Of a DNA stretch of 34,489 nt, positions 8,887 through 27,896 are shown piece by piece; positions within the stretch are counted from its first letter, which is position 1, and every line of letters begins with the position of its first letter. Made by a program: the position numbers and the translations under genes. The DNA is from Opitutia bacterium (GTDB lineage: Bacteria > Verrucomicrobiota > Verrucomicrobiia > Opitutales > Opitutaceae). The stretch spans positions 1 through 34,489 of the forward strand of contig JACRHT010000013.1 in NCBI GenBank assembly GCA_016217545.1, read 5' to 3'. Below the pieces are notes generated by a model. It was not told the origin of the DNA. It ran no database searches and was given only the letters and a program-made list of their open reading frames with translations.

Positions 8887-8987
8887 AGTCCCCAGTGACA
8901 AGGGACAAGTGACAAGAGCCGGAAAAACCGGCGCACGGCGGCGTCGGGAGAGCGGCTCTGGGAACTTGGAACTTGTTACTTTCCACT
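8887..8987. repeat. Inverted heptamer-repeat element, copy A (motB-motA gap)
   Basis: The left arm is five tandem 7-base units at 8887-8921, each beginning AG (for example AGTGACA at 8894, AGGGACA at 8901, AGAGCCG at 8915). The right arm, 8953-8987, is five 7-base units each ending CT, the same family on the other strand (CGGCTCT at 8953, GGGAACT at 8960, TTCCACT at 8981). The innermost units, AGAGCCG and CGGCTCT, are exact reverse complements; the outer ones match only in part. About 31 bases separate the arms. The element fills nearly the whole motB-motA gap. The pattern is seen directly; its function is unknown. Confidence 0.7.
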
Positions 8988-8992
8988 TCGGT

Positions 8993-9856
8993 TTATTTGC
9001 CCGTGCCGAGGCTCTTCACCGCGGCTTCGAGCTCGTCGGCGCCGGGTTGGACGTTGCTGTCGAGAGAACGGCGCGCGATCTCGACGGCGGTGAGGGGCGC
9101 GAGGCCCTTCGCGAAGCCGGCCACGGCCTGCATGATGCACTTCAAGGCGAGCTGGTCGGCGGCGTCGTTGAACTTGATGCGGTTGGCCAGCGGGTTGACG
9201 AAGCCGTAGGCGACGAAAATGCCGAGCAGCGTGCCGGTGAGCGCGGCGGCGACGCGTTCGCCGACGACCTCCGGGCCGTCCGCGATCGCGGCCATCGTGT
9301 TGATGATGCCGAGCACCGCCGCGACGATGCCGATGCCGGGCAGCGAGTCGCCGACGAGCGAGAGGATGTGCACCGGATGCTCCGCCTCCTCTTTTTTCGC
9401 CGCGAGTTCGGCGGACATGAGGCTTTCGAGCTGGTCGGGCTTGATTTTGCCGTCGATGACGGGCTTCAGGCCGTTGCAGAGAAACTGGAGTCGCTCGTGG
9501 TGATTCGCGAGCGACGGATAGCGCTGGAAAATCGAGCTCTTGCTCGGATCCATCACGTGTTCTTCGAGCGCGATGAGTCCGTTTCTACGGCCGGTCATGA
9601 ACAGCTCGTAGAGCAGCTTCAGCAGCTCGAAATAGTCCTCCTTGCCGGGCGCCTTGCCTTTGATCGTCCCCTGGACCTTGTGAATGATCTCCTTCAGCAC
9701 GTGCCCCGGGCTGGCGATGATCAACACGCCCGCCGCCACGCCAAGGATGACGACGAACTCCGACAAGTGGAGCAGCACCATGGGCTGGCCACCCGCGATC
9801 ATGAAACCGCCCAGGGTGGACGCGAAAACTACGGCAGCTCCGATGAGGACGAGCAT
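8993..9856 (-). CDS. motA: Flagellar motor stator protein MotA
   Basis: MotA is the membrane subunit that surrounds MotB and pushes on FliG in the C-ring. The 287-residue product has two N-terminal membrane segments (about 1-20 and 30-50), a cytoplasmic domain of about 120 residues containing RRNGLIALEEHV, and two C-terminal membrane segments separated by a short loop. The third carries GDSLPGIGIVAAVLGIINTM and the fourth GTLLGIFVAYGFVNPLANRI. Length and pattern match the MotA/PomA family. ATG at 9856 starts 9 bases after the fliA stop, so motA is transcribed with the sigma factor gene. A heptamer-repeat element separates it from motB. Confidence 0.96.
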   Translation of the reverse strand: MLVLIGAAVVFASTLGGFMIAGGQPMVLLHLSEFVVILGVAAGVLIIASPGHVLKEIIHKVQGTIKGKAPGKEDYFELLKLLYELFMTGRRNGLIALEEHVMDPSKSSIFQRYPSLANHHERLQFLCNGLKPVIDGKIKPDQLESLMSAELAAKKEEAEHPVHILSLVGDSLPGIGIVAAVLGIINTMAAIADGPEVVGERVAAALTGTLLGIFVAYGFVNPLANRIKFNDAADQLALKCIMQAVAGFAKGLAPLTAVEIARRSLDSNVQPGADELEAAVKSLGTGK

Positions 9857-9865
9857 GAGGGGCGG

Positions 9866-10672
9866 TCAGCGGTTGCGGGCGCGACCGAGGAAGGCGCGCA
9901 GACCGAGGATGGTCTGCGAGTGGATTTGGCAGATGCGCGACTCCGTCAGGCCGAAAACGGCAGCGATTTCGGCCAGGCGCATGTTTTCGAAATAATACAT
10001 GGCAAGTATCTTCCTCTGGATATCGGGCAATTCCGTCATCCGTTGAGTGAGAAGTTGCAGCAGCTCCTGTTTCTCGAGCGTGTCGCGGCCGGTCGTATCG
10101 TGTTCATCGGCCAGCAGTTCGTGCAACGAGGCCCCTTCGGACTCCTCGCCTTCGGCATGCTGGTCGAGCGCGATGAAGGTCACCGGGCGCGATTCGTCGA
10201 GCCACTTGGCGTATTCGACGTGGCTCAGGCCGAGCTCTTCGCAGATCTCGTCCTCGGTGGCGGTGCGGCCGAGCTTTTGCTCGAGCTCGTTGATCGCCTC
10301 CTTGAGCTTGCGGGCGCGGGCGCGCGTGCGGCGCGGGCACCAGTCCATGCGACGGAGCTCGTCGAGGACGGCGCCGCGGATGCGCATCGCGGCGTAGCCG
10401 GCAAAGGTGTTGCCCTGCTCCGGATCGTATTTGCGCACGGCGGCGATGAGGCCGGTGACGCCGACGCTGTAGAGGTCGTCTGCGTCGATGTGCGGCGGGA
10501 GGGTGAGTTTGATGCGGTCCACGACATTGCGGACCAACGGCAGGAAGCGCTCGATAAGATCCTTCTCATCGACAGCGCCCGAAGTCCCCGCGTAGGCGCG
10601 CCAGGCGGCCGTAGCAGGGGCGGTGGGTGTGGCATCCATGCCGCGTGCGAGTGCTGCAGCGGCGTTTTTCAT
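9866..10672 (-). CDS. fliA: Flagellar sigma factor sigma-28
   Basis: FliA directs RNA polymerase to late flagellar promoters. The 268-residue protein has the order of the FliA/WhiG group: region 2 with DADDLYSVGVTGLIAAVRKYDP and TFAGYAAMRIRGAVLDELRR, region 3 with LKEAINELEQKLGRTATEDE, and region 4 ending in a helix-turn-helix, LAEIAAVFGLTESRICQIHS. The first 30 residues are a variable Ala-rich extension. Its ATG at 10672 overlaps the stop of orf83 by 4 bases (ATGA) and motA follows after 9 bases. No anti-sigma gene flgM is visible nearby. I found no convincing sigma-28 promoter in the window. Confidence 0.95.
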   Translation of the reverse strand: MKNAAAALARGMDATPTAPATAAWRAYAGTSGAVDEKDLIERFLPLVRNVVDRIKLTLPPHIDADDLYSVGVTGLIAAVRKYDPEQGNTFAGYAAMRIRGAVLDELRRMDWCPRRTRARARKLKEAINELEQKLGRTATEDEICEELGLSHVEYAKWLDESRPVTFIALDQHAEGEESEGASLHELLADEHDTTGRDTLEKQELLQLLTQRMTELPDIQRKILAMYYFENMRLAEIAAVFGLTESRICQIHSQTILGLRAFLGRARNR

Positions 10673-10920
10673 GACTTCAGGGGCGAGAGTTCCGGCTTGG
10701 TCTTGGCGACCTCGGCGGCGGCGGCCCGTTGCCGGGCGGCCATGGTTTCACGCAAGCCGTCGAGCATGATGCTCCACAGCCAGCGAAAGAGGAGAGCGCC
10801 GATGAGACAGCCCACGGCGCCATCGAAGAAAATTCGGTCGGGCCCGCGGCCCATGTAGAGAGCGGTGCCCGCGGCGAGCGCGAACCCCAGCAGACCTCCG
10901 AGAAGAAAGACGTAGCGCAT
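10669..10920 (-). CDS. Small two-helix membrane protein between flhF and fliA (orf83)
   Basis: I do not recognise this 83-residue protein. It has two predicted membrane segments, about residues 3-22 (YVFLLGGLLGFALAAGTALY) and 33-52 (FFDGAVGCLIGALLFRWLW), followed by a charged tail rich in Ala, Arg and Lys. Gene status is supported by tight packing: its ATG lies 2 bases after the flhF stop and its stop overlaps the fliA start in an ATGA junction. In many bacteria FlhG occupies the slot between flhF and fliA, but this protein is unrelated to FlhG. A structural or assembly role is inference. Confidence 0.7.
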   Translation of the reverse strand: MRYVFLLGGLLGFALAAGTALYMGRGPDRIFFDGAVGCLIGALLFRWLWSIMLDGLRETMAARQRAAAAEVAKTKPELSPLKS

Positions 10921-10922
10921 GA

Positions 10923-12071
10923 TCAGGCGGCGGTGTTGAGGGCGGTGGCAGCGGCGACTTCGTCCTCGTCGTCGATGTCCGCGGGTTCGGGCTGCACGGT
11001 GGTCTCCGCGACCGGCATGGTGCGGCGCGCGACGGCGTCGGCGGCGTCCACCTCGAGATCGCTCGTGAGCGACGGACCGGTGGCGAGGAACAGCGGCTCG
11101 AGGTCGCCATCGAGCAGGTAATCCCACAGGCGGCCCCACTGGGAAACTTCGTCGAGGTGCGTGAAGACAACATGCGTCGCACCGAGATCGCGGCCGGCGG
11201 CGTAAGCCGAGCGCAGCGTCGAGTGATCGTAGGCGGCGTTCAACACGAGCACGCGCTCGGTGATCTTCTCGGTGTCGAGGAAGCGAGCGATCGAGGCGTT
11301 CTCGCTCGGATTGCGCAGCGACAGGCCGGGCAGGTCGAAGTAAACGAAACCGCCCTCCGTCGCCGGCTCGGTCGACGCGGGGAAATGCGCGAGCGGCACG
11401 CCGAGCGCCTCGCAGAACACCGGCAGCTGGCCGGGCGAATTCGGACGATCGAACTCCGCGGTGACGACGTGCCCGATGCGGGCGCGGCGGAAAACTTCCG
11501 CGGAAAGCCATTTGCAGAGCGCCGTCGTGCGACCGACACCGGGCGTGCCGAGGAACGCCGCGCGGCTGAGCGGCGCGCGGGTTGCGCGTTGCGCGGCGAG
11601 ATCGCGGAGATGGTTGCCGGTCTCGACCAGCGCGCGGTGCAGCGGCAACTCCTCGAGGCGGCGCCATTCGGGGGCGCGTTCGAGGCGGGCGAGCAGAGAC
11701 TCGGAGAAACCGGAGCGGCGGAGCAGCTCGGGCAGGGTCATCTTCGGCGCGCGGATCATCGAGCGCGGCGCGCGCACGCGGCCGGCGGAGACGGCTTCGT
11801 TGGCCGCGCCGAGTTCGCTGAGGACGGCTTTCGGCTCGGCGACGACTTCGGGCGCGGGCGCCGGAGCCGGCTCGGGCGCGAGGATTTGCGCGATGACTTC
11901 GAGTTTCGGAGAGGAGAACAGGCCGAGCATGCCGCCGCTCTCGACGTTGCGGACGGAGAGCACGCGGGCGTTTTCGCCGAGTTGCTCGCGGATGACGCGC
12001 GCGGCTTCGTCGGCGTTTTTCACCACGAAGCGGTAGCAGGAAGCGGCGGAAGATTGGGGCGCGGTGGACAT
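10923..12071 (-). CDS. flhF: FlhF-family protein with altered nucleotide-binding site
   Basis: FlhF is an SRP-type GTPase that helps place and number flagella. The 382-residue product has the family N-terminus (YRFVVKNADEAARVIREQLG), a Pro/Ala linker (about 65-80), an N domain (about 110-165) and an NG domain. The signature sites are changed: the P-loop reads GTPGVGRTT (175-183) with Arg181 where the lysine should be, the DTAGR-type motif reads DLPGL (246-250), and the TKLDE motif reads THLDE (304-308). The acidic C-terminal tail (after about 345) is unusual. Position directly after flhA is normal for flhF, but no flhG follows. It may bind nucleotide weakly or act as a scaffold. Confidence 0.85.
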   Translation of the reverse strand: MSTAPQSSAASCYRFVVKNADEAARVIREQLGENARVLSVRNVESGGMLGLFSSPKLEVIAQILAPEPAPAPAPEVVAEPKAVLSELGAANEAVSAGRVRAPRSMIRAPKMTLPELLRRSGFSESLLARLERAPEWRRLEELPLHRALVETGNHLRDLAAQRATRAPLSRAAFLGTPGVGRTTALCKWLSAEVFRRARIGHVVTAEFDRPNSPGQLPVFCEALGVPLAHFPASTEPATEGGFVYFDLPGLSLRNPSENASIARFLDTEKITERVLVLNAAYDHSTLRSAYAAGRDLGATHVVFTHLDEVSQWGRLWDYLLDGDLEPLFLATGPSLTSDLEVDAADAVARRTMPVAETTVQPEPADIDDEDEVAAATALNTAA

Positions 12072-12078
12072 GGCGGGA

Positions 12079-14253
12079 TCAGGCGGCGGCCTTCAGGTTG
12101 TCGTTGCGGGCGAGGAGGTGCGCGGGAGCGGTGACGATGCCGGCGTTGTCGATCTCGGTGGACGACGGGAGCTCCTGGAACGCGAGGACCGTGAGGCGCG
12201 GGAACGACGGTTCGAGGAAGCGCTTGAGCGGGAGGCGTGTCTCGGTGGAGACGACGAGGACGGTGGGGAGGCCCTTGAGCGTGAGTTCGTTCGTGCGGCG
12301 GCTGAGTTCCTCGACGAGGTGGCGGCCCGTGGCCGGGTCGAGCGCGAGGCCGACATCGGTGGGCGAACGGTGAACTTTGGTCGCGAGCACTTGCTCGAGA
12401 CGCGGGTCGAGCGTGAGGGCTTTGAGCGAACCGGGTTTCGCCTCGAACTCGGGGACGAAATACAGACCGAGGCGGCGGCGGACGAGTTCGCTGAGGTCGT
12501 CGGGATTCTTCGAGAGCGGCGCGAAATCCGCGATGCCTTCGAGGATGAGCGGGAGATTGAGGATCGCGATGTTCTCGCGGAGGAGATTCTGCAGCACGCG
12601 CTGGATGATGCCCATGTTGACGAGGTCCGGCAGGAGCTCGGCGATGAGCGCGGCGTGCGTGCCTTTGATGTGGTCGACGAGCGCCTGCACGTCCTGGCGG
12701 CCGAGGAGGTGATGGGCGTTGGCCTTGAGCGTCTCCGAAAGATGCGTGATGAGAACCGACGACGGATCGACGACCGTGAAGCTGTTCAACTCGGCGGTCT
12801 TGCGCTCGCCTTCGTCGATCCACACGGCGTCGAGGTTGAAGACCGGCTCGCGCGTCGGCATGCCGCGGAGGCGCACCGTGCTGCCGGTGACGTTCATCGC
12901 CATGAAGCGACCGGGCATCAGCGTGCCACGCGCGACCGTCTTGCCGCGGAGGAGGAAGCGGTAGTCGTTGGCCTCGAGTTCGAGATTGTCGCGGACGGAA
13001 ATCGGCGGGACGACGATGCCCTTCTCGCGAGCGAGCGCCTTGCGCACGCCGGTGACGCGGGCGAGAAGGTCGCCGCCGACCTTGGCGTCGGCGAGTTGGA
13101 GAAGTCCGTAACCGATCTCGATCGCGAAGACGTCGACGTCGATGAGCTTGCGGACGTCCTCGGACTTCGCGGGCGAGACGGATTCGCCGGAGGCGCCGGC
13201 GGCGGCTTCGCCCGGTTTGCCGGAGACGCCGGACTTACCGGCTTTGGCGACAGCGGGAGCGCCCGAGGTGACGGCGGTGCCGTCGGCATCGAGAACCTTG
13301 AGCGTCTTGGCCATAAAGCCCGCGAGGAGCGCGAGGCTGGCGAACGGCAGCGTCGGCATGCCGGGCATGAGGGCGAACACGCCCATGCATCCGGCCGCGA
13401 TGCCGAGGGCGCGCGGGTAACGGAAGAGCTGGCTGGTGACTTGCGTGCCGAGGTTGTTGTTGTCCGAGGCGCGCGTGACCAAGAGACCGGCACCGATGGA
13501 GATGATCAGCGCGGGAATCTGCGAGACGAGGCCGTCACCGATGGAGAGCAGCGTGAACTTCTGCAGCGACTCGCCGAGCGACATGCCCATTTGGAACACG
13601 CCGATCGCGAAACCGCCGAGAACGTTGACGAGAGTGATGAGGATGCCGGCGATCGCGTCGCCGCGCACGAACTTCGAGGCGCCGTCCATCGCGCCGTAGA
13701 AGTCGGCTTCCTTTTGGACCTTCAGGCGGCGAGTGGTGGCTTGGACTTCGTCGATGATGCCGGCGTTCAGTTCGGCATCGATGGCCATCTGCTTGCCGGG
13801 GAGCGCATCGAGCGTGAAGCGTGCGCTCACTTCAGCGATGCGGCCCGCGCCCTTCGTGATGACCACAAAGTTGATCACGACGAGAATGATGAACACCACG
13901 GCGCCGACGACGTAGTTGCCGCCGATGACGAAGTGGCCGAACCCTTCGATGATCTCGCCCGCGTAGCCGTGCGCGAGGATCTGGCGGGTTGAGCTGATGT
14001 TCAGCGCGAGGCGGAACAGCGTCAGCACGAGGAGCATCGTCGGGAAGCCCGAGAACTCCGGCGGATCCTTCACGTAGACGATCGCGAGGAGCACCAGCAG
14101 CGAGAGGCCGATGTTTAGCGCCAGCGCGAGGTCGATGAGGAACGGCGGAATCGGCAGCACCAGCAGCAGCACCGTGCCGAACAGCGCGGCGGTGAACAGC
14201 AGGTCAGCGCGCTGAAGCAGCTTGGCGATGTGGGCGTTGGAGGAGACGGGCAT
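12079..14253 (-). CDS. flhA: Flagellar export gate protein FlhA
   Basis: FlhA is the largest export-gate subunit; its cytoplasmic ring docks substrates and chaperones. The 724-residue protein has about eight membrane segments in its first 340 residues. The conserved cytoplasmic loop carries GAGRIAEVSARFTLDALPGK followed by MAIDAELNAGIID, the FHIPEP family signature. A linker rich in Gly, Ala and Ser (about 325-365) precedes a large soluble C-terminal domain with DPSSVLITHLSETLK and GRQDVQALVDH. ATG at 14253 lies 3 bases after the flhB stop, and flhF begins 7 bases after the flhA stop. Confidence 0.97.
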   Translation of the reverse strand: MPVSSNAHIAKLLQRADLLFTAALFGTVLLLVLPIPPFLIDLALALNIGLSLLVLLAIVYVKDPPEFSGFPTMLLVLTLFRLALNISSTRQILAHGYAGEIIEGFGHFVIGGNYVVGAVVFIILVVINFVVITKGAGRIAEVSARFTLDALPGKQMAIDAELNAGIIDEVQATTRRLKVQKEADFYGAMDGASKFVRGDAIAGILITLVNVLGGFAIGVFQMGMSLGESLQKFTLLSIGDGLVSQIPALIISIGAGLLVTRASDNNNLGTQVTSQLFRYPRALGIAAGCMGVFALMPGMPTLPFASLALLAGFMAKTLKVLDADGTAVTSGAPAVAKAGKSGVSGKPGEAAAGASGESVSPAKSEDVRKLIDVDVFAIEIGYGLLQLADAKVGGDLLARVTGVRKALAREKGIVVPPISVRDNLELEANDYRFLLRGKTVARGTLMPGRFMAMNVTGSTVRLRGMPTREPVFNLDAVWIDEGERKTAELNSFTVVDPSSVLITHLSETLKANAHHLLGRQDVQALVDHIKGTHAALIAELLPDLVNMGIIQRVLQNLLRENIAILNLPLILEGIADFAPLSKNPDDLSELVRRRLGLYFVPEFEAKPGSLKALTLDPRLEQVLATKVHRSPTDVGLALDPATGRHLVEELSRRTNELTLKGLPTVLVVSTETRLPLKRFLEPSFPRLTVLAFQELPSSTEIDNAGIVTAPAHLLARNDNLKAAA

Positions 14254-14256
14254 GGC

Positions 14257-15369
14257 TTAGGCGGCGTTGGTTCCGGCCGTGAGGCGGCGCGTCTTCAGCT
14301 GGTGGAAGTAGTAGCGGTGCGTGCGGTAAACGACCGCGAGGATCTGCGCGACGGCCTGGTAGAGCTCCGGCGGGATCGCCTCGCCGACCTTGCCCATCGC
14401 GAAGAGCAGGCGCGCGACCGGCTTGTTCTCGACCGTCGGCACGCCGTGTTCGGCGGCGAGCGCCTTGATGCGCTGCGCGAAACGATTCTCGCCCTTCGCG
14501 AGGATGACCGGGGCCTTGTCGACGCCGCGCTCGTATTTCAGCGCGACGGCAAAGTGCGTGGGGTTCGTCACGACGACGTCGGCCGTGGCCACGGACTCGA
14601 GCATCTGCCTTTGCAGGAGTCGGCGGGCCATGCGGCGCATCGCGCCCTTCACGTGCTGGTCGCCTTCGGAGTTCTTGGCCTCATCCTTCACTTCCTGCCG
14701 CGTCATCATCATGTCGCGGTGGGTTTTGAATTTTTCCCAGCCGTAGCTGATCGCGGCGATGACGCCGAGCGAGAGAAGCAGGCGGCCGAAGAACGCCGTG
14801 GAAGCTTCGCGCAAGAAGGTGCCGAGATACGCGGCCTCGACCGGCGCGGTGAACAGCGGATCCTCGAGCAGCGTGCGGGCGCCGAGATACAGCGCGTAGC
14901 CGATCGCGATGAGCTTCAGCACGTCGATGCCGGAACGCACCCAGGTGGCTTTCGAGAACAGGCGCTGGAGGCCGGCGACCGGGTTGAGCTGGTCGAGCTT
15001 CGGCGTGAGCACCTTGGCGGAAAGGCGGAATCCACTCTGGAAACCTCCCGCGAGCATCGCGGCGCCGGCGCAAGCGACGAGGACGGGCAGCACGACCTTC
15101 GCGCACGTGAGCAGGATGTTGCCGAGCAGGAGCGGAAACGTGTCCGTGTTCACCTGCATCAGCCGGAAATTCGTGAACATCATCACCGAATATTCGGCGA
15201 CCTCGTTGGCGCTCTGCCGCACCGTGAACGCGAGCGCTCCCAGGGCCGCCGTCAGCGTGAACACGACCGTGAGCTCCTGGCTCCTCGCGAACTGACCCTT
15301 TTCCGCGGCCTCGGTGAGACGCTTCTCGGTCGGTTGCTCTGTTTTTTGGTCGTTGTCGGTGTCTGCCAT
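14257..15369 (-). CDS. flhB: Flagellar export switch protein FlhB
   Basis: FlhB sits at the export gate and switches specificity from rod/hook to filament substrates after self-cleavage. The 370-residue protein starts with KTEQPTEKRLTEAAEKGQFA, the family N-terminus, has four membrane segments, and carries the autocleavage motif NPTH at 269-272 within VVVTNPTHFAVALKYERG. I chose the ATG at 15369, which gives MADTDNDQ; a TTG at 15414 would add 15 residues but overlaps a sigma-54-like promoter. It is the first gene after a 201-base gap, so a new transcript may begin here and read through flhA and flhF towards fliA and the motor genes. Confidence 0.95.
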   Translation of the reverse strand: MADTDNDQKTEQPTEKRLTEAAEKGQFARSQELTVVFTLTAALGALAFTVRQSANEVAEYSVMMFTNFRLMQVNTDTFPLLLGNILLTCAKVVLPVLVACAGAAMLAGGFQSGFRLSAKVLTPKLDQLNPVAGLQRLFSKATWVRSGIDVLKLIAIGYALYLGARTLLEDPLFTAPVEAAYLGTFLREASTAFFGRLLLSLGVIAAISYGWEKFKTHRDMMMTRQEVKDEAKNSEGDQHVKGAMRRMARRLLQRQMLESVATADVVVTNPTHFAVALKYERGVDKAPVILAKGENRFAQRIKALAAEHGVPTVENKPVARLLFAMGKVGEAIPPELYQAVAQILAVVYRTHRYYFHQLKTRRLTAGTNAA

Positions 15370-15397
15370 CGTGGCGGGTGTTTGTCCGACCCACTTG

Positions 15398-15413
15398 AGC
15401 AACGCCGATGCCA
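15398..15413 (-). promoter_or_regulatory. Sigma-54-type promoter candidate upstream of flhB
   Basis: On the minus strand 15413-15398 reads TGGCATCGGCGTTGCT. The GG and GC dinucleotides have the exact spacing of the -24/-12 consensus TGGCAC(N5)TTGCW, with matches at TGGCA and TTGCT. Transcription would begin around 15387, giving a leader of about 17 bases before the flhB ATG. The site lies in one of the few long gaps of the block. Sigma-54 control of flagellar genes is common in other bacteria; its use here is inference. Confidence 0.5.
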
Positions 15414-15518
15414 AGGGTCTGCCACCGCCTGCTACGCGCAGTTCATCAACGTTTTAAATTTATTCCCGCCTCGCAAAAACGTTCCAACAGGCACTTCGTC
15501 CGGAGGCCGCAAAACTTA

Positions 15519-15533
15519 AGGCAAAAATTGCCT
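15519..15533 (-). terminator. Weak hairpin after fliR
   Basis: On the minus strand AGGCAA-TTT-TTGCCT (15533-15519) forms a 6-bp stem 37 bases after the fliR stop and is followed by TAAGTTTT. It could be a weak terminator separating the fliR transcript from the one starting before flhB. Confidence 0.3.
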
Positions 15534-15570
15534 CATTTCCGCGGGGATGTTCTCCCGGCCCCGCCGTCCG

Positions 15571-16323: not shown

Positions 16324-16345
16324 GAAACGGCGGCGGGAAGGCCGC

Positions 16346-16439
16346 CGGGTTGAGGGTTGAGAGTTGAGGGTTGAGAGCCCAAGGCAGCGTCGAGTGATCG
16401 GAGCAACTGGTTCGGTCTCTCAGCACTAGGCTCCAAGCT
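16346..16439. repeat. Inverted heptamer-repeat element, copy B (fliR-fliQ gap)
   Basis: The left arm has four tandem units starting AG at 16353-16380 (AGGGTTG, AGAGTTG, AGGGTTG and AGAGCCC), preceded by a near-unit CGGGTTG at 16346. The right arm has units ending CT: GGTCTCT (16414-16420), CAGCACT (16421-16427) and, after a 5-base short unit, CCAAGCT (16433-16439). The arms belong to the same AG-heptamer family in opposite orientation, with the right arm less regular than in the other copies. The element fills most of the 121-base gap. Confidence 0.6.
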
Positions 16440-16444
16440 TTTCC

Positions 16445-16714: not shown

Positions 16715-16727
16715 GCGGGAAACGCTG

Positions 16728-16813: not shown

Positions 16814-16818
16814 TCTCC

Positions 16819-17667: not shown

Positions 17668-17688
17668 GGTCGTCCGTGACGGGGCGCG

Positions 17689-19395: not shown

Positions 19396-19405
19396 GGTCG
19401 CAGCC

Positions 19406-20044: not shown

Positions 20045-20067
20045 GGCGGCGGGCGGTTAGGCGAAGC

Positions 20068-20931: not shown

Positions 20932-20963
20932 GGTGAGTTGAGGATGTTTGGAAGTTTTCTGGT

Positions 20964-21446
20964 TTAGGCCGACGTGCCGTCCGTTGCGGTGCTGCTCTGC
21001 TGGGTTGCGGTCGGCTCGATCCGTCGAACCGAATAAAGGGGATAGGATTTGTCGCCGATCTTGAGCGACACGCCGTTGGTGGCGTCGTTGTCGAGGGCGG
21101 TGACGACGCCGGTCACGGACTTGCCCTTGTCGTCCTCGACGGTGACGGTGCGGCCGATGTAGCTGTTGCCCATCAGCAGCTGCTGGTCAGCGCGCAGGGC
21201 GGCCATCTGCGTGGCCATCGTCTTGTTTTGCTCGAGGGCGGAGAACTGCGCCATCTGCGCGATGAACGCGGTGTCTTCCATCGGCTTCATTGGGTCCTGC
21301 TGCTGGAACTGCACGGCGAGCAGCTTCATGAATTCGTCGGAACCGAGCGTCTTGGTGACTTTGCGCGCGGTGCCGCCGCTGGAGTTGTAGAGATCGGAGT
21401 AACCGACGTTCTTGGACGAGGTGGAGGTGGCGCTGGTGACGGACAT
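20964..21446 (-). CDS. flgD: Hook assembly scaffold protein FlgD
   Basis: FlgD caps the growing hook and is discarded once the hook is complete. The 160-residue product has the conserved N-terminal region with LGSDEFMKLLAVQFQQQDPM, then FIAQMAQFSALEQNKTMATQ, the standard FlgD export and capping signature. A short beta-rich part with a VTGVVTALDND segment follows. It is near the small end for FlgD and seems to lack the extra C-terminal Fn3-like domain of larger versions. I chose the ATG at 21446 because it gives MSVTSATSTSS, a polar export-type N-terminus, 4 bases after the fliK stop. The open frame extends far upstream, but that part is antisense-like sequence within fliK. Confidence 0.92.
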   Translation of the reverse strand: MSVTSATSTSSKNVGYSDLYNSSGGTARKVTKTLGSDEFMKLLAVQFQQQDPMKPMEDTAFIAQMAQFSALEQNKTMATQMAALRADQQLLMGNSYIGRTVTVEDDKGKSVTGVVTALDNDATNGVSLKIGDKSYPLYSVRRIEPTATQQSSTATDGTSA

Positions 21447-21450
21447 GGGA

Positions 21451-23346
21451 TTAAGCGACGGCGGAAAGGTGGACGGACGTGGGCAGCACGACGGGCGCGG
21501 CGCTGGTGGCGGCGCCGCCATCGCGCGGCTGGAAAGGCGTGGAGCGGGCGATGCTGCCGAAGAATTCCTGCGCGCGCGCCTGCTGCTGATTTTGCTGCTG
21601 TTGCTGCTGCGCAGCGGATTGCCCGGGCGATTGCTGGTGCTGTTGCTGCGCGAACGACCCCGTGCCGGTCTGCGGCGACGAGGTGGGCGAGACCACGGGC
21701 TCGAGGAAACGCAGCGCGCTCTCGGGCTGCGCGGCGACGGCCTTCCACTCGTTCGAGATCGCGGCGCGCAACTCAGGGGAATCCGTGCGGAATTCGGTGC
21801 GGACGGTGCCGTTGCGGAGCTCGACGCGGACGGCCAGATCCTCGGTGCCAAACTTGAACTTCAGCTGGACGCTCGGCACGGGCTGGAGCTTCGAGGCGGC
21901 CTGGGCGTCGACGACGTTGGTGACCGTCTCCACAGCGCGCTTCGCAAACGAAGCCGCGACCAGCTGCGGCATCGGCTCGGGCGAACCAGCGGCCACGACC
22001 TGCGTCTGCGCCGGCACGACGGACACGATCGCCGGGACCGTCGGCGAGACGGCGGAGAAGGTGTCGTGCGGAATGAAGAGCATGGTCGGACGCGTTTCAG
22101 CAACGCCGATGCCAGCTTTCTTTTCCGGCAAGCTAAGCTCCTGCTTATCCGCAGTTAGAAAGTTTTTTCCGGCGGACTTTTTTTCGCCGAAATCGATCTC
22201 CGGCGACTCGGGGTTCGAAGCGGCAGAATTTTCCGCGCGCGGTGCGACGGACTCGGTCGCAGGCACGTTCTTCGACGCGACCTGGCCTTCGACGACCGGC
22301 GCCGTCGGCAAAGCCAGCGCAACGACCACACCTTCCGGAAGCTCGACCGACGCCTCCACTTGCAGGGGCGCCTGGTCCGGCGCCGATGAAACCGGCAGGC
22401 CAGGAGTCGTCGGGCGAACCGGAGTCGATGCGCGAACGATGGGAGTCGGACGCGGCTCGGTCGACGTCGCAGGCCGGCTCGTCGCGGTCGGAACAACCAT
22501 CGTTTCGGAAACGGTCGCGGGCGAAGTCGGAGCGGCTTCGGTCTGCGGTGCCGCTGCCGTCGCGTCCACCACCTCGGGCGCGCTCGCGGAAGCGAACGGC
22601 TGGCCGGGCGCCGGCGCGGGCGTCGTCCGCTCGGGCAACGTCACGCTCAAGGCGATCGCGCCGCCGCGAAGCGCCTCAACGGTCGAAGGAACACCGCCGG
22701 GCAAAGTGTCGTCGTCGGCATTTTCCGCGCCGTGCTCGTCGGGCGAAGTGGCGACCGGAGTGAGAGGAGCTTCCGCCGGAGGCGGCGCGACCAGCGCGGC
22801 AACGGGCGCGAGCAGCGCCGCGACGGCCTCGAGAGTCGCGCGATCCGGCATCGTCGCCGTCACGGCGGGCGACGCTTCGGGCATCGCCTCATCGCTGTCG
22901 CCGGACACCGCCGCAACGTTCACGCCGCGCGCGATGCCGCGAGCATCGGTCGGCGCGCCTCGAGTCGACGACGGCGGCACGTTCTTGGACGGTGCCACGC
23001 TCGTAGGTATTGCCACACTCGTCGGCGATGGCGGCACGGACGTCGCGGTCGTCGGAGTGACGGTGCGCACGCCGGGAGCGGTGGCCACGGTGCCGGGGTT
23101 GGCGACCGGTGTAGAAACAGGGCTTGTCGCCGGCTGTGGCGCCACGGGAGCGGGCGTCGCCGTATCGCCACCGAGCAACGCGCCGAAATCGGACGCCGCG
23201 CAGGCCGGACTATTGGTCGCGACCGGCGACTCCGAAGCGCTGGCGCCGAGCAGCGCGGCGAGATCGCCGGTGAGCGCGGAGGGAACGGTCGAACTCGCAC
23301 TGAGCGAGATTTCGGCGGGGGAAGTGCTGGGGAAGGAAGTCGTCAT
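21451..23346 (-). CDS. fliK: Hook-length control protein FliK
   Basis: FliK is the secreted ruler that measures the hook and triggers the FlhB switch. The 631-residue protein is dominated by a low-complexity Ala/Pro/Thr/Val/Ser region (about 20-500), as expected for the extended ruler, though longer than the 400-450 residues of many FliK proteins. The conserved C-terminal domain is recognisable at about 500-555: VQLKFKFGTEDLAVRVELRN, then VRTEFRTDSPELRAAI. After it comes a Gln-rich tail (about 570-600) with runs of glutamine. ATG at 23346 gives a polar export-type N-terminus. The call rests on the C-terminal domain and the position before flgD. Confidence 0.85.
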   Translation of the reverse strand: MTTSFPSTSPAEISLSASSTVPSALTGDLAALLGASASESPVATNSPACAASDFGALLGGDTATPAPVAPQPATSPVSTPVANPGTVATAPGVRTVTPTTATSVPPSPTSVAIPTSVAPSKNVPPSSTRGAPTDARGIARGVNVAAVSGDSDEAMPEASPAVTATMPDRATLEAVAALLAPVAALVAPPPAEAPLTPVATSPDEHGAENADDDTLPGGVPSTVEALRGGAIALSVTLPERTTPAPAPGQPFASASAPEVVDATAAAPQTEAAPTSPATVSETMVVPTATSRPATSTEPRPTPIVRASTPVRPTTPGLPVSSAPDQAPLQVEASVELPEGVVVALALPTAPVVEGQVASKNVPATESVAPRAENSAASNPESPEIDFGEKKSAGKNFLTADKQELSLPEKKAGIGVAETRPTMLFIPHDTFSAVSPTVPAIVSVVPAQTQVVAAGSPEPMPQLVAASFAKRAVETVTNVVDAQAASKLQPVPSVQLKFKFGTEDLAVRVELRNGTVRTEFRTDSPELRAAISNEWKAVAAQPESALRFLEPVVSPTSSPQTGTGSFAQQQHQQSPGQSAAQQQQQQNQQQARAQEFFGSIARSTPFQPRDGGAATSAAPVVLPTSVHLSAVA

Positions 23347-23368
23347 GCAGGGCTTCCTTCCGTGGAAT

Positions 23369-23394
23369 TCGTGCGCGCCATCCGTGGCGCACGA
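23369..23394 (-). other. Hairpin in the fliK-motE gap
   Basis: TCGTGCGC (23369-23376) pairs with GCGCACGA (23387-23394) around a 10-base loop. The stem is perfect but no T-run follows on either strand. It could affect mRNA processing or translation of fliK; no function can be assigned. Confidence 0.35.
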
Positions 23395-23409
23395 TTGAGT
23401 GTGGGCGAA

Positions 23410-24015
23410 TCAGGCCGGCTTGGCGGCCTTCATCAGACGCAGTTTTTCGGAAAGGATGGCGACGCGGCGCGCGAGCGTGCCGTCGACGGTGGCGGTCTTG
23501 CTCATCTCCTCGAAGATCGGCGACACCGTGTCGGGCTTCATCAGCGAGAGGATTTTAACGGCGGTGGTGTCGTCGAGTTCCTTGATGATCGCGACGGCGG
23601 CACGCGGCGTGAGATTGGCGTAGGTGGTGGCGAGGGTCTTGAGGTTCTTCGCCTCGTCGGCGTTGATCTCGACGACCTTGTCGGAAATTTCCTTCCGCAT
23701 CCGCTCGAGATCGGCGCGGACCTTGTCGAGTTCCTGCTGTTCCGCCGAGAGGCGGGCAGCGCGCTGGTCGAGCTGCTCGGCCTGTTTGCGCAGGCGTTCC
23801 TTCTCGCCCTTCAACTCGGAGGCGAGGTTGTCGATTTCGATCGTCCAGAAATCCCAGCCCTGGGCCTTCTGCGTCTTCACCGACGCGGCGCGCGTCGCGG
23901 CGGCGTGCGCGATGATGGCGTCGCCGGCGCGCCAGAACCAGCCCAAGCCGGCGGCCATGCCGGACATCAGCGCGAGAAAAACGACGATCGCGGGATTTTG
24001 AGCGAGCTTGGTCAT
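23410..24015 (-). CDS. MotE-like protein with MgtE N-type domain
   Basis: The 201-residue protein has one N-terminal membrane helix (about 10-26), a long charged coiled coil (about 60-115, with ELKGEKERLRKQAEQLDQRA) and a C-terminal MgtE-intracellular-N-like helical domain (YANLTPRAAVAIIKELDDTT then AVKILSLMKPDTVSPIFEEM). This architecture matches the MotE family, a periplasmic flagellar protein studied in rhizobia as a chaperone for MotC, and related proteins encoded near fliJ in many bacteria. No MotC is seen here, so I assign the family and not that role. ATG at 24015 overlaps the fliJ stop by 4 bases (ATGA), supporting coupling. Confidence 0.8.
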   Translation of the reverse strand: MTKLAQNPAIVVFLALMSGMAAGLGWFWRAGDAIIAHAAATRAASVKTQKAQGWDFWTIEIDNLASELKGEKERLRKQAEQLDQRAARLSAEQQELDKVRADLERMRKEISDKVVEINADEAKNLKTLATTYANLTPRAAVAIIKELDDTTAVKILSLMKPDTVSPIFEEMSKTATVDGTLARRVAILSEKLRLMKAAKPA

Positions 24016-24464
24016 GAGAAGAGAGTGCGGCGCACCGACCGGAAGCCGGCGAAATCATCCATCGCGTTCTGGTCCTCGACGAGCGCGGCGGCGCGATGGA
24101 CGGAGCGCGCTTTTTCCTCGAGCTTGTTGACGACCTTGAGCTGGCGGCTCGCATCGAGGTATTCCGCGCGGCGCTTGTGCATCACATCGCGCGCCTCGAT
24201 GACTTTGCGCTCTGCCTGCACTTCCTCTTCGCACTCGCTGCGGTAGGTGCGGAAGAGCGACGCGGCATCGGCGGCGAGAAACGTGCCCCCGCGTCCGTCG
24301 AACAGCGTTTGCGCGAGCTCGGCCACCCGCGTGCGCGTGGTCGCGAGCGACTCTTCGGCTTGCACGTAAACATGGACCGAGGCGGCGAACGCCTCGCGAG
24401 CGCGCAGCTCCTTGTGCGCGCGGATGACGGCCACGGGCCGGAGGGGAAAACGGAAACGTTTCAT
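24012..24464 (-). CDS. fliJ: Flagellar export chaperone/stalk protein FliJ
   Basis: FliJ forms the stalk inside the FliI hexamer ring and recycles export chaperones. The 150-residue product is almost entirely helical and charged, with the family opening MKRFRFPLRPVAVIRAHKEL and long heptad-rich stretches such as YRSECEEEVQAERKVIEARD. Its length is typical. FliJ is weakly conserved in sequence, so the call rests on the N-terminal F-x-F-x-L-x-x-V pattern, coiled-coil character and its place after fliI. Both ends are coupled: its ATG overlaps the fliI stop, and its stop overlaps the motE-like start, each by 4 bases. Confidence 0.9.
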   Translation of the reverse strand: MKRFRFPLRPVAVIRAHKELRAREAFAASVHVYVQAEESLATTRTRVAELAQTLFDGRGGTFLAADAASLFRTYRSECEEEVQAERKVIEARDVMHKRRAEYLDASRQLKVVNKLEEKARSVHRAAALVEDQNAMDDFAGFRSVRRTLFS

Positions 24465-25783
24465 GGCACGAGGATCTTCCTGAGCAGCTTGAAGGATTCC
24501 GCGCGGGCCGTGTGCTCATGGACGCCCTGACGGAGAAATTTGCGCAGCGGCTCGTGCAGCGTGATCGCCTGGTCGAGCGCGGCGTTGGCGCCCTTTTGGT
24601 AGGCGCCGATGGAAATGAGATCCTCGTTCTTGCGGTAGAGCGCGAGGTGCTCGCGGGCCTTGGCGGCGACATCCACCTCGTCGATCGTGCAGACGTCGCG
24701 CGTCAGACGGCTGACGGATTCGAGCACGTCGACCGCGGGGTAGTGATTGAAATGCGCGAGCTGGCGCGAGAGCACCAAGTGTCCGTCAAGAATACCGCGG
24801 ACGGCGTCGGCGACGGGCTCGTTCATGTCGTCGCCTTCCACGAGCACGGTGTAGAGCGCGGTGATCGCGCCGTTCTCGCCGGCGCCGGAGCGCTCGAGCA
24901 GGCGCGGCAGCAGCGCGAAAACCGACGGCGTGTAGCCGCGCGTCGCGGGAGGTTCGCCGATGGCGAGGCCGATCTCGCGTTGCGCCATCGCGAAACGCGT
25001 CACCGAGTCCATCATCAGCATCACGTTCTTGCCCTGATCGCGATACGCCTCGGCGATCGACGTCGCCGTGAACGCAGCACGCAGGCGCAACGGCGCGGGT
25101 GTGTCGGAAGTGGCGACGACGACGACAGAGCGCTTCAGGCCCTCGGGGCCGAGGTCCTTCTCGAGGAACTCGCGGACTTCGCGACCGCGCTCACCGACGA
25201 GCGCGATGACGACCACGTCGGCCGAGCAACCGCGCGCGATCATGCCGAGCAAAGTGGACTTACCGACACCGGAGCCGGCGAAGATGCCGAGACGCTGACC
25301 GCGTCCGATCGGCGTGAAGGTGTCGAGCACGCGCACGCCGGTCGTGAGTGCTTCCTTGATGCGCTGGCGGCGCAGCGGGTGCGGCGGCGTGTGGTCGCGC
25401 TCCGTGCGGTCGACGGGGAGCAAACCGAGTTCGTCGAACGGACGACCGAGCGCATCGAGCACGCGGCCGAGCAACTCCGGGCCGGGGCGCGGCAGCGGCG
25501 GACGGTCGGCGGCGGCGACTTCGCAGCCGACGTGCAGGCCGGACGTGTCGCCGAGCGGCATGAGCAGCACGCGGTGTTCGCGGAAGCCGACGACCTCGGC
25601 GCGGACGGTGAAGTCGGTGCGCGGCGAGCGGACGTTGCAAAGTTCGCCGAGGCCGACGTTCGGGCCTTCGGACTCGATGATGAGGCCGGCGACACCCGTG
25701 ACCGCGCCGACGCGCTGCACCGCCGGCAGGTGCTTGACCTGCGTGCGGAGCACATCGACAAGCGGTGCGACGGCGGCGTTCAT
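24461..25783 (-). CDS. fliI: Flagellar export ATPase FliI
   Basis: FliI is the hexameric ATPase that unfolds and feeds substrates into the export gate. The 440-residue protein has the F1-type order: a beta-barrel N-terminal domain, the P-loop AGSGVGKST at 169-177, the VVIALVGERGREVREFLE segment, Walker B in NVMLMMDSVTRFAMAQREIG, and a C-terminal domain with ALDQAITLHEPLRKFLRQ. All catalytic signatures are intact. I chose the ATG at 25783: it gives MNAAVAPLV and overlaps the stop of the small upstream gene in an ATGA junction. A TTG two codons earlier is possible. fliJ follows with a 4-base overlap. Confidence 0.97.
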   Translation of the reverse strand: MNAAVAPLVDVLRTQVKHLPAVQRVGAVTGVAGLIIESEGPNVGLGELCNVRSPRTDFTVRAEVVGFREHRVLLMPLGDTSGLHVGCEVAAADRPPLPRPGPELLGRVLDALGRPFDELGLLPVDRTERDHTPPHPLRRQRIKEALTTGVRVLDTFTPIGRGQRLGIFAGSGVGKSTLLGMIARGCSADVVVIALVGERGREVREFLEKDLGPEGLKRSVVVVATSDTPAPLRLRAAFTATSIAEAYRDQGKNVMLMMDSVTRFAMAQREIGLAIGEPPATRGYTPSVFALLPRLLERSGAGENGAITALYTVLVEGDDMNEPVADAVRGILDGHLVLSRQLAHFNHYPAVDVLESVSRLTRDVCTIDEVDVAAKAREHLALYRKNEDLISIGAYQKGANAALDQAITLHEPLRKFLRQGVHEHTARAESFKLLRKILVP

Positions 25784-26010
25784 GCGCAATCGCCTCCGAA
25801 GCCGATCTCGTCGGTGAGGTTGAGGATCTCCGCGCCGAATCCCGGCGAAACGCCGGAGCGATCGAAATCCGTCGCGTCGCCCGCGCCGCAGAAAGTGTAA
25901 CCTAATAGGTTACAAGTCGCGGCCGGCCTCGGCGCGTTTTCACTCGAGAGTGCGCGGAAAGTGTAACCTATTAGGTTACACGGCGGCAGGAGCTGGAGGC
26001 GGGGATTCAT
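25780..26010 (-). CDS. Small protein between fliH and fliI containing two palindromic repeats (orf76)
   Basis: The 76-residue frame runs exactly from the fliH stop to the fliI start, overlapping each by 4 bases (ATGA at both ends), which is strong evidence that it is or was translated. The product begins MNPRLQLLPP and ends in an acidic tail, EILNLTDEIGFGGDCA. It contains the octapeptides CNLIGYTF and CNLLGYTF, 22 residues apart, each encoded by a copy of a 19-bp palindrome. No known domain is recognised. It might be a small protein invaded in frame by a mobile palindrome, or a leader whose translation couples fliH to fliI. Confidence 0.6.
   Translation of the reverse strand: MNPRLQLLPPCNLIGYTFRALSSENAPRPAATCNLLGYTFCGAGDATDFDRSGVSPGFGAEILNLTDEIGFGGDCA
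25896..25914. repeat. 19-bp perfect palindrome, copy 1
   Basis: TGTAACCTA-A-TAGGTTACA is a perfect 9+1+9 dyad, AT-rich amid GC-rich sequence. It is preceded on the plus strand by GAAAG, which is also present before copy 2. It is in frame within the small gene between fliH and fliI. Confidence 0.9.
25962..25980. repeat. 19-bp perfect palindrome, copy 2
   Basis: TGTAACCTA-T-TAGGTTACA is identical to copy 1 except for the central base, 66 bases away (22 codons, so both copies read in the same frame). Flanking G25961 and C25981 extend the dyad to 10 bp per arm. The shared GAAAG to the left makes a direct repeat of about 24 bases. Confidence 0.9.
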
Positions 26011-26585
26011 GCGCCGGTGAGGGAGTGGCTGAGGGCGGCGAGCTTGGTTTCCTGGCGGGCGTCGGTGAGGCCGAAGCGCGAGCGGACGAGGCAGTCGCCG
26101 GGGCGGAGCGTGCCGTCGACGCGGACTTGCAGGCCCGGATAACGCTTCATCCAATCGGGATTCAGCGCGGTGAGCAGTTCGGCGTCGCGCGGGGCGAGCG
26201 AGAGTTCGAGGCCTTCGCGCTCGGGGAAGAGCTGTTCGAGCGCTTCGCGGCAGAGGCGCTCAATCGTCTCGACCGGCGGCTCGTAGCCGGCGAGGAGGCG
26301 GTGCGCGATGTCGACCGCGAGCGCCGGGAGGGCGTCGCGAAGTTGCGTGACGAGCGAAGGCTCGATCGCGGAGAGTTTGTGCAACACGCCTTCGCTGAGC
26401 TGGCCCATGTCGGCGCGGAACTCGACCATCTGCTGGTCGGCGAGCGCGCGGGCGGAGTCGACGCCGCGGCGGTAGGCTTCCTCGCATTTGGCGGCGACCT
26501 CGGCCTCGGTGTAGATGCGTCCCTGGCCGGGCAGCACGGCGGCGGCGAGCGGGCGGTCGAAGGCGATGAGTTTGGCGTAGCCCAC
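26007..26585 (-). CDS. fliH: Flagellar export apparatus protein FliH (main frame)
   Basis: FliH holds the FliI ATPase and tethers it to FliN and FlhA. The 192-residue frame contains a helical central part (EAEVAAKCEEAYRRGVDSAR) and the conserved C-terminal FliH domain with LAVDIAHRLLAGYEPPVETI and PGDCLVRSRFGLTDARQETK. The only in-frame start is a GTG at 26585 without a ribosome binding site. The sequence just before it in the same frame (DPLFQILT) reads as natural protein, and another frame carries a plausible N-terminus from 26761. The gene therefore seems frameshifted at 26610-26613; repaired, it would be about 251 residues. fliG lies upstream, and the small orf76 overlaps the stop by 4 bases. 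Confidence 0.85.
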   Translation of the reverse strand: MGYAKLIAFDRPLAAAVLPGQGRIYTEAEVAAKCEEAYRRGVDSARALADQQMVEFRADMGQLSEGVLHKLSAIEPSLVTQLRDALPALAVDIAHRLLAGYEPPVETIERLCREALEQLFPEREGLELSLAPRDAELLTALNPDWMKRYPGLQVRVDGTLRPGDCLVRSRFGLTDARQETKLAALSHSLTGA

Positions 26586-26587
26586 GG

Positions 26588-26761
26588 TCAGGATTTGGAA
26601 GAGCGGATCGGGGAAACCGGGAAAGCCACCACGCGCGCCCGCGAGCGAACCGGACGCGAGCGCACCGTGGCCGGGCGCGACGCGGCGGACACGCCAAACT
26701 CGAAGCTCCGCATGATGGCGCGGAGCGGTTCGGTGGTGGCGGAGGTGGGCGACGGCGTCAT
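26588..26761 (-). pseudogene. fliH: Probable N-terminal part of fliH in another frame
   Basis: A 57-codon frame starts with ATG at 26761, 5 bases after the fliG stop, the expected place for the fliH start. Its product contains TTEPLRAIMRSFEFG and ARVVAFPVSP, protein-like segments, then runs out in IRSSKS and a stop at 26588. Adding one C to the C4 tract (26613-26610 on the minus strand) would join VVAFPVSP to DPLFQILT and the FliH frame. This could be a real mutation, a programmed -1 shift or a sequencing error in a homopolymer. Confidence 0.6.
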
Positions 26762-26766
26762 GGGCG

Positions 26767-27786
26767 TCAGGCGACGAGTGCTTGCGACTCGGAATCGAGG
26801 GAGATCTGGCCCTCTTCCTCGAGGCGGCGGACGGCCTGGATGATGACGTCCTGCGCGGCTTCGACGTCCTTGAGGCGGACGGGCCCGAGGAGTTCGATTT
26901 CCTCCTTGAGGCCTTCGGCGGCGCGCTTGGAGAGGCCGGCGTAGATTTTTTCGCGCAGCGATTCGCTGGCGGACTTCATCGAGATGGCGAGGTTGCCGGA
27001 GTCGACTTCGCGCAGCACGCGCTGCAGGTCGGCGGCGGCGAGGCGGTTGAGGTCCTCGAAGCTGAAGAGCTTCTTGCGGATCGCGGCGCCGAGGGTCGCG
27101 TTGCGCTCCTCGATGCGGGCGAGCAGGTTCTTCGACATGTCCTTGTCGAGGGAGTTGAGCAGGCCGGCGACCGCGCGGACGCCGCCGCTGCGGTGGAAGG
27201 CGGTGCGCACCTTCGTGTCGAAGTGCTTGCCGAGGGAGCGCACGATTTTGCCCACGAGGTCGAGCGACGTGGACTCTATCGTGCCGAGGCGCTCGACGAC
27301 TTCCTCGCGGAGGTCGGGACTGAGCAGGGCAAACACTTCGGCGGACTTCGCCGGATCGAGATACGACAAGACGAAGGAAATCGTCTGCGGCTGCTCGTGC
27401 TTGATGAGATTGAAAATCTGGCGGCCTTCCATCTCGGCGATGTCGCTGATGATCTCGATGGAGCTGCCGGCGACGGGGCCGACGCGGCCGATGATCGATT
27501 GGGCCTTGTAGTCGCCCTTGGCGATCTCGAGCGTGCGTTGCGCGAAGGGCAGGCCGCCGAGCGCGGAGCCGACGCTGGTGGCGACGATCGAGCTGAATTC
27601 CTCCATCGCCTGCTTCTGCGTGGCCTCGGGAATCATCGTGAACGTCGACATCTCGCGGCACAGCATCTCGATCTCGGCGTCGTCGAATTGTTTCAGCACC
27701 TCGGCGGCGGCCTCGGGCCCGATGCAAATCAGGAAGACGGCGAGCTTCTGCTGACGGTTGAGCTTGGTGAAATCGATGTCGGCCAT
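26767..27786 (-). CDS. fliG: Flagellar motor switch protein FliG
   Basis: FliG is the top of the C-ring, bound to FliF, and carries the charged ridge on which the stator acts. The 339-residue product has the N-terminal domain (FTKLNRQQKLAVFLICIGPE), the middle domain with HEQPQTISFVLSYLDPAKSA, close to the EHPQ motif, and a C-terminal domain with LFSFEDLNRLAAADLQRVLR and the charged segment MKSASESLREKIYAGLSKRA. Length and landmarks are standard. ATG at 27786 is clear. A heptamer-repeat element fills the gap to fliF, and fliH starts 5 bases after the stop if the N-terminal fragment is counted. Confidence 0.97.
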   Translation of the reverse strand: MADIDFTKLNRQQKLAVFLICIGPEAAAEVLKQFDDAEIEMLCREMSTFTMIPEATQKQAMEEFSSIVATSVGSALGGLPFAQRTLEIAKGDYKAQSIIGRVGPVAGSSIEIISDIAEMEGRQIFNLIKHEQPQTISFVLSYLDPAKSAEVFALLSPDLREEVVERLGTIESTSLDLVGKIVRSLGKHFDTKVRTAFHRSGGVRAVAGLLNSLDKDMSKNLLARIEERNATLGAAIRKKLFSFEDLNRLAAADLQRVLREVDSGNLAISMKSASESLREKIYAGLSKRAAEGLKEEIELLGPVRLKDVEAAQDVIIQAVRRLEEEGQISLDSESQALVA

Positions 27787-27800
27787 GGGAGAACTAGCTG

Positions 27801-27896
27801 AGAGTTGAGAGCTGAGAGCTGAGAGAAAGAGCCGCGACGCAGAGAGCGGTCCGGTTGGCCGGGCCGCTCGTCTCTGGGCTCTGGGCTCTGAGCTCT
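27801..27896. repeat. Inverted heptamer-repeat element, copy D (fliG-fliF gap)
   Basis: The left arm is four tandem units starting AG at 27801-27828 (AGAGTTG, AGAGCTG, AGAGCTG and AGAGAAA). The right arm is four units ending CT at 27869-27896 (CGTCTCT, GGGCTCT, GGGCTCT and GAGCTCT). This is the most regular of the four copies: each arm contains a duplicated unit, and the consensus AGAGCYS holds in both arms. The 40-base spacer contains its own GC hairpin (GCGGTCCGG with CCGGGCCGC). It fills most of the 125-base gap. Confidence 0.7.

Follow-up and report, generated by a model that had tools for sequence, protein, structure and literature searches.

The stretch analysed here, called the window, is one whole contig (JACRHT010000013.1, here C13; 34,489 nucleotides, nt) of the 5.09-Mb, 17-contig genome of an Opitutia bacterium (assembly GCA_016217545.1). 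Among named matches, those nearest to its FliP come from metagenome-assembled genomes of Opitutaceae (Verrucomicrobiota). It carries a block of flagellar genes in which four intergenic gaps, motB-motA, fliR-fliQ, fliQ-fliP and fliG-fliF, each hold an element built of short tandem units, or words, facing their own inverted counterparts (A to D, Table 1). The architecture that the original prediction ascribed to these gaps, with units beginning in AG, a spacer and then units ending in CT, is present in all four. Its count of four to five units per arm holds less evenly, since the number of clean units varies, with about three by program in the right arm of B and the left arm of C. The proposal that the elements account for most of the long gaps of the block holds only in part: by our gene calls they fill four of the eight gaps of at least 100 nt and not the other four, some of which may reflect mis-called starts. 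Folded as RNA in the sense of the genes, A (−38.1 kcal/mol, z −2.7) and D (−47.1 kcal/mol, z −2.6) stand out, but the energies of B (−36.5 kcal/mol, z −1.4) and C (−24.9 kcal/mol, z −1.1) are unremarkable. The gaps are not intrinsic terminators comprising a hairpin and a T run, as none of the nine terminator-like hits in 8700-28000 falls within them, nor do they match a described RNA family in Rfam, where only a small-subunit ribosomal RNA (rRNA) match at 1-362 reaches the gathering score in the window.

Table 1. The four inverted-word elements of the flagellar block and their parts (window coordinates).
Feature	Gap	Start	End	Strand	Units or remark
Element A	motB-motA	8886	8988		
A left arm	motB-motA	8886	8920	+	AGTGACA/AGGGACA
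A spacer	motB-motA	8921	8953	.	GC-rich inner hairpin
A right arm	motB-motA	8954	8988	-	inverted units GGAACTT/GTTACTT
Element B	fliR-fliQ	16348	16439		
B left arm	fliR-fliQ	16348	16375	+	AGGGTTG/AGAGTTG, 14-nt alternation
B spacer	fliR-fliQ	16376	16418	.	
B right arm	fliR-fliQ	16419	16439	-	
Element C	fliQ-fliP	16730	16813		
C left arm	fliQ-fliP	16730	16750	+	AGAGTCT/AGAGCTG
C spacer	fliQ-fliP	16751	16785	.	
C right arm	fliQ-fliP	16786	16813	-	
Element D	fliG-fliF	27800	27897		
D left arm	fliG-fliF	27800	27827	+	AGAGTTG/AGAGCTG
D spacer	fliG-fliF	27828	27862	.	GC-rich inner hairpin
D right arm	fliG-fliF	27863	27897	-	CTCTGGG

Related genomes hold elements in the same gaps, often with another word. 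In the congeners G007 and G006, both arms of the motB-motA gap consist of AGTTTAA/AGGTTTA words and both arms of the fliQ-fliP gap of AAGTTGA/AGGTTGA words, with AAGTAAG at the latter gap in the more distant G032; the motB-motA gap of G004 measures only 4 nt. The word family of element B recurs at the fliR-fliQ gap of G007 and G006, and the gap lacks an element in G004 (24 nt) and G008 (30 nt). At fliG-fliF, G007 has a pair, G006 a single arm and G008 an 18-nt gap with no element. Across 106 fliP-fliQ loci (four genomes being represented twice), most gaps are 43 nt or shorter; gaps above 85 nt occur in 15 distinct genomes, 12 of which show word arms by eye, two of them with one clear arm only, and the words differ. 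The G008 fliP-fliQ gap and the G004 gap orthologous to our C12:164723 (sites are given as contig:position), both of which bear word arrays in congeners, hold ordinary inverted repeats with no tandem words by eye, possibly a further hairpin in the same place.

To place these elements in the genome, we sampled 834,489 bases of it (C17:1-400000, C12:1-400000 and the window), in which a simple custom gene caller left 386 gaps of at least 50 nt. The pattern (AGN5)3 followed within 80 nt by (N5CT)3 occurs in 11 gaps and in none of each of ten dinucleotide shuffles, and other loci do carry copies, as the original prediction anticipated. With four units the comparison is 10 to 0; with a period of 8 no gap was found, with a period of 6 two, and with the order everted (CT first) one. 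Among these 11, C12:205117 proves to be a long array running in one direction, with no convergent pair; gap B is not counted among them, since its right arm departs from the AG/CT register. Tracts scored by lag gave 18 at lag 7, 10 at lag 6, 15 at lag 14 and none at lags 8, 11 and 13. A looser, register-free scan for inverted tracts of any word was not specific to 7, with lags 5, 6 and 9 also high; such counts reflect in part a background of codons and hairpins, in part words longer or shorter than seven. The period of 7 and the AG/CT register describe the commonest words of this genome, where the elements are degenerate period-7 arrays, convergently paired and intergenic, but not the whole kind, as congeners also have words of 6, 8 and 9 nt. 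Cousins with the inverted layout and words of about 8-10 nt (CACAGAG- and CGCAAGG-like) were observed at our C17:143545 and C12:77608 and in the gaps before lpd of G008, G002, G016 and G022. Long tandem runs of (AGCTCTC)n or its complement in a single direction, with about nine or more units, lie at our C12:205275-205363 and about C12:685692 and in G007 near C1:2330969 and C1:2383525; one of them adjoins a gene end in both genomes, with differing copy number.

We compared the element sites of our genome with their orthologous gaps in congeners, naming words by eye. Dropped before counting were the array at C12:205117 and its G007 match, GC-rich hits with no recognisable word (e.g. C17:31341) and sites with no orthologue in the compared stretches (e.g. 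C12:7464, C17:94979). Ten sites were compared with G007: an inverted word pair is present at eight and a remnant at one, and the tenth gap is only 9 nt long and empty. In G006, pairs stand at seven of nine sites; fliG-fliF has a single arm there, and the remaining site holds nothing alike. Both presence and absence are seen among relatives, and the sequences show sites that stay occupied in three congeners. Another word stands in four of the eight pairs shared with G007 (C17:39950, C12:164723, C13:8877, C13:16715) and in five of the seven shared with G006 (the same four and C17:27168). The flanks of word-changed sites are 86-96% identical, except for one side at 77%. Within the gaps, identity to G007 is 0.29-0.57 where the word has changed and 0.73 where it has not (two gaps), against a median of 0.80 over 73 other co-directional gaps. 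At C17:39950, G004 and G006 share one element including its spacer, and G007 and our genome each hold a different word, for which the simplest history would be replacement in place. A target-site duplication of the kind that marks miniature inverted-repeat transposable elements (MITE) was not recognisable by eye beside the inverted arms, the whole gap differing between species.

One site, C17:39950, was followed through further relatives. The genes on either side of it, odhB and lpd, appear from their sequence to encode the E2 and E3 components of 2-oxoglutarate dehydrogenase. The lpd protein, searched in 43 relatives, matched in 42, closely in 29 genomes; the gap before it was read in 24 of these 29, with five more distant ones left out, and the exclusion of G014 (upstream gene not odhB) and G018 (a long one-direction array that could not be parsed) gave 22 gaps, of which six are 42 nt or shorter and 16 span 70-260 nt. 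When at most 48 nt were taken from either end of each of these 16, the two ends paired on average at −34.1 kcal/mol within a genome against −16.3 kcal/mol between genomes; no permutation of 50,000 did as well (p = 2e-5), and the true partner came first in 12 of 16. All 16 were used, unselected for complementarity, our own gap having lost 14 nt to the stop finder, and the near-duplicates G004/G006 and G008/G002 render the test conservative. In 419 control gaps with no listed element, the corresponding energies were −27.2 within and −24.4 kcal/mol across. By eye, 14 of the 16 gaps (not G019 and G024) contain matched inverted word arms, built from at least nine words of 6-9 nt, so that sequence comparison establishes matched arms with differing words at one orthologous site.

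A similar match between arms is found across a set of elements. In 28 of them, picked for their AG/CT register and periodicity and without regard to complementarity, the pairing energy was −28.3 kcal/mol for the two arms of one element and −17.7 kcal/mol for arms of different elements, and none of 20,000 permutations was as good. An earlier pairing test (p = 0.0045) is not relied on, because its elements had been selected partly on complementarity; the same bias attaches to the finding that the folding z falls below −2 in 39 of 46 strict elements against 13 of 40 control gaps.

In the listed elements the arms measure about 21-45 nt each, and the spacer that separates them is mostly 20-60 nt long. 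Among the 46 strict elements, the 36 between co-directional genes begin a median of 7.5 nt after the stop codon and end 10 nt before the next start. A strict element occupies 23 of 282 co-directional gaps of 90-140 nt as against 1 of 276 of 50-80 nt, and only one lies between convergent genes, which account for 199 of 1553 gaps. Stop codons in all frames, present on the entering strand in 31 of 92 arms, on the other strand in 6 and in shuffled arms in 4, were rejected as a general feature: they are word-specific, as 35 of the 92 arms have none. A G-tract in each unit, and with it G-quadruplex potential, was not seen, most units lacking GGG by eye. A CCGA core immediately inward of the 5' arm was seen in 18 of 52 cases, compared with 333 of 3377 control 20-mers and 7 of 52 for the 3' arm; it is only a lead, the motif having been picked after seeing the data and some elements being orthologous.

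The arms are dispersed. Gap D has at least 47 blastn matches in our genome, itself included (40 of 85 candidates were scored). An irregular 23-mer of CTTTCT-like words, in essence hexameric with a single heptamer, and with a pyrimidine-rich arm that precedes the other, the opposite of the window's AG words, occurs in 32 copies in G006, 9 in G007, 6 in G001, 2 each in our genome and G003 and 1 in G004; it is present in 6 of 13 genomes of the genus and absent from 7, and a reversed-pattern control gave 0. Of 20 places examined in G006, 18 pair it with an inverted copy that agrees at 17 or more of the 23 positions. The central spacers there (13 of 20, those of at least 15 nt) resemble one another no more, on average, than shuffled sequences do (5.58 versus 5.19); one pair shares 12 bases, and the best shuffled pair scored the same. 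From these sequences dispersal and inverted pairing are established, and dispersed pairs with largely unrelated spacers point to arms copied from place to place in bursts, with spacers of local origin. The copies of the 23-mer in G006 lie 23 forward and 9 reverse despite arbitrary contig orientation, and the unpaired ones are mostly forward. Across the phylum, an exact inverted GTTGAG pattern, too strict to judge spread, was found in 2 of 387 genomes, one of the hits in another order of the class.

Expansion of words in place by slippage, as in simple sequence repeats (SSR) and short tandemly repeated repetitive sequences (STRR), with template switching matching up imperfect palindromes, is an improbable source of these arrays. 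Template switching in quasi-palindromes is an established process, the units are tandem and degenerate, and TTGAGRG arrays alternate over 14 nt (order A-G-A in 14 of 25 hits), all of which would suit it. Yet the same irregular array, the 23-mer, recurs at many loci, and words change wholesale between congeners whose flanks remain mostly well conserved. Moreover, among 41 intergenic period-7 tracts in 1.23 Mb of our genome, 21 have an inverted partner (at least 13 of 18 matches, within 130 nt) and 3 a direct one, although at a looser threshold (at least 12 of 18) the figures are 28 and 18.

Dispersal also raises the prospect of classical repetitive extragenic palindromic (REP) sequences, bacterial interspersed mosaic elements (BIME) or REP doublets forming hairpins (REPINs), mobilised by REP-associated tyrosine transposases (RAYT). 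The elements do have the REPIN-type layout of inverted dispersed repeats with a variable spacer, and in the parts of that literature drawn on here REPINs are likewise intergenic and hairpin-forming (PMC3116915). Y1_Tnp is matched 10 times in our genome, and Opitutus terrae is reported to carry GTAG REPs (PMC3733652). The GTAG in the AGTAGCG word belongs to the repeated word itself. None of 30 Y1_Tnp loci in four genomes, however, has a word array at the gene ends, and the 97 kb around Y1_Tnp loci contain 3 tracts against about 6 expected from density. The arms are also not palindromes, with a median self-fold of −2.95 kcal/mol and only 10 of 92 arms below −8 kcal/mol. We consider this identity very unlikely and reject it on the absence of arrays at the ends of the 30 loci. 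Of the original suggestion of a mobile element, the dispersal of arms stands, and no mobilising enzyme was found.

We give an even chance to the reading that these are dispersed, REPIN-like inverted pairs acting as intercistronic stem-loops, whose word is replaced wholesale and which are selected at some sites. The transcribed arms would pair across the spacer, so that in a polycistronic mRNA a stem-loop would separate one gene's stop codon from the start codon of the gene that follows. Arms would disperse through a genome in pieces of about 25-40 nt, in lineage-specific bursts and by some copying process; an occupied gap would tend to remain occupied, its element being swapped wholesale for one with another word. 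At some sites, such as odhB-lpd and fliP-fliQ, a stem-loop is probably maintained by selection whatever its sequence, and the most likely benefit would lie in how the mRNA is processed or stabilised, or in expressing the two genes unequally. We infer that the elements are transcribed and act as RNA, that they confer a selective benefit and that some agent spreads them; a role as mRNA stabilisers or processing sites, put forward in the original prediction, would fit among these benefits.

Several observations weigh against this reading. Conservation is poor in a tenth of the 73 other gaps as well (identity 0.45 at the 10th percentile), and some occupied gaps are empty in close relatives, with C12:368985 reduced to 9 nt and g6a:60865 to 26 nt in G007, which implies that presence is dispensable at many sites. 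Folding energy alone does not set B and C apart, about 5 of the 46 strict elements resemble GC-rich background, and the odhB-lpd site was picked because our genome carries an element there. Of 45 elements, 36 lie between co-directional genes, compared with 1096 of 1553 gaps, which is no significant excess (p = 0.19). Lastly, among 17 elements with GAG words, the two arms of one element show no pairing advantage over arms of different elements (−28.6 against −27.6 kcal/mol, p = 0.27). The arms are thus matched at the level of the word, with no base-by-base tuning; compensatory evolution base by base finds no support within one word, and drawing both arms from one word family fits better than slow compensatory change.

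The main rival is that of selfish dispersed inverted repeats of no benefit, which some enzyme inserts into harmless gaps between co-transcribed genes; gaps would be re-used since they are safe, and stem-loops would be a by-product. We regard it as less likely than not, although it would account for the lineage-specific bursts (the 23-mer being abundant in G006, scarce in our genome and absent from seven of the 13 genomes of the genus), for the empty alleles in close relatives and for spacers that are mostly unrelated. Insertion just before a start is also probably tolerated, given how few leaders resemble a Shine-Dalgarno sequence: GGAG, GAGG or AGGA lies about 4-18 nt before the predicted start in 71 of 646 genes on C17, C12 and C13 (about 11%), which suggests little use of such leaders. 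It explains less readily why sites persist with a changed word, at 8 of 10 sites in G007 and, in G006, as seven pairs and one single arm among nine, even though strict elements occupy so few (23 of 282) of the co-directional 90-140 nt gaps, and why 14 of all 22 odhB-lpd gaps hold a pair by eye.

A stricter form of the stem-loop reading, which we hold only tentatively and think somewhat more apt to fail than to stand, is that the structures are anchored to sites and free of sequence: a long hairpin at a given place would be selected, and the word of both arms exchanged from a repertoire of dispersed words by some copying machinery. If so, covariation would arise at the level of whole arms, from element replacement instead of point mutation. 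One gap with different words in matched arms separates the keeping of structure from the keeping of sequence, and makes testable both the function (does any hairpin suffice?) and the copying mechanism (are the arms replaced jointly?). RNA searches that depend on alignment can overlook elements of this sort, for which species need not share a single conserved base pair.

Two further features of the window were observed. A gap of the flagellar block at 25784-26006 holds two inverted copies of a GTAACCTATTAGGTTAC-like core, about 35 nt apart, with no heptads. The rRNA match at 1-362 is part of a 16S rRNA gene on the minus strand (289.7 bits), cut at its 3' side at the contig start; the contig begins inside this gene, so an rRNA gene was the point at which the assembly broke off.

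Many bacterial genomes contain an excess of heptamer repeats, and in the literature searched these have had few detailed studies and no agreed origin or role. Among the closest known systems are the Xanthomonas heptamers. Rehm et al. (2015; PMC4692102) describe, in the parts drawn on here, convergent pairs of GGGAATC heptamers, 70 in Xcc and 75 in Xac, so that the architecture itself is not new, contrary to the original statement that no inverted-arm version had been described. Xanthomonas GGGAATC and Nostoc GGGGA(T/C)T repeats are degenerate heptads, commonly of four units, intergenic and mostly between co-directional genes near a stop or start, with few inverted pairs in Nostoc (PMC4692102). 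The present elements share with the Xanthomonas heptamers the degenerate heptads, the intergenic position close to stop or start and the many convergent inverted pairs, and with the STRR heptanucleotide repeats of cyanobacteria (Calothrix, PMC4692102) the tandem units of period 7. Like REPINs and REP dimers as presented in PMC3116915 and PMC3733652, they consist of two inverted dispersed repeats with a variable spacer, intergenic and able to form a hairpin in mRNA or single-stranded DNA; REPs, in which Opitutus terrae is reported to be rich (GTAG type, PMC3733652), are tagged palindromes linked to RAYT genes, whereas the arms here are non-palindromic and show no such linkage at the Y1_Tnp loci. 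The TAACTGA repeats of Beggiatoaceae are also intergenic heptamer arrays, mostly just before start codons and spread over distant taxa, but, as far as that account goes, they are one fixed word in direct repeats, with one indirect among 169 sets (PMC4679880). Searches of the open-licence PubMed Central literature returned no report of such elements in Verrucomicrobia or of word replacement in both arms at a fixed site; the Xanthomonas study searched one word, for which reason word swaps could not have shown in it. Word swapping at a fixed site appears to be new, and the evolutionary behaviour of these elements is unusual: where the Xanthomonas study describes one G-rich word, for which G-quadruplexes were proposed (PMC4692102), a single genome here carries many words of 6-9 nt, and the word is often changed at the same site.

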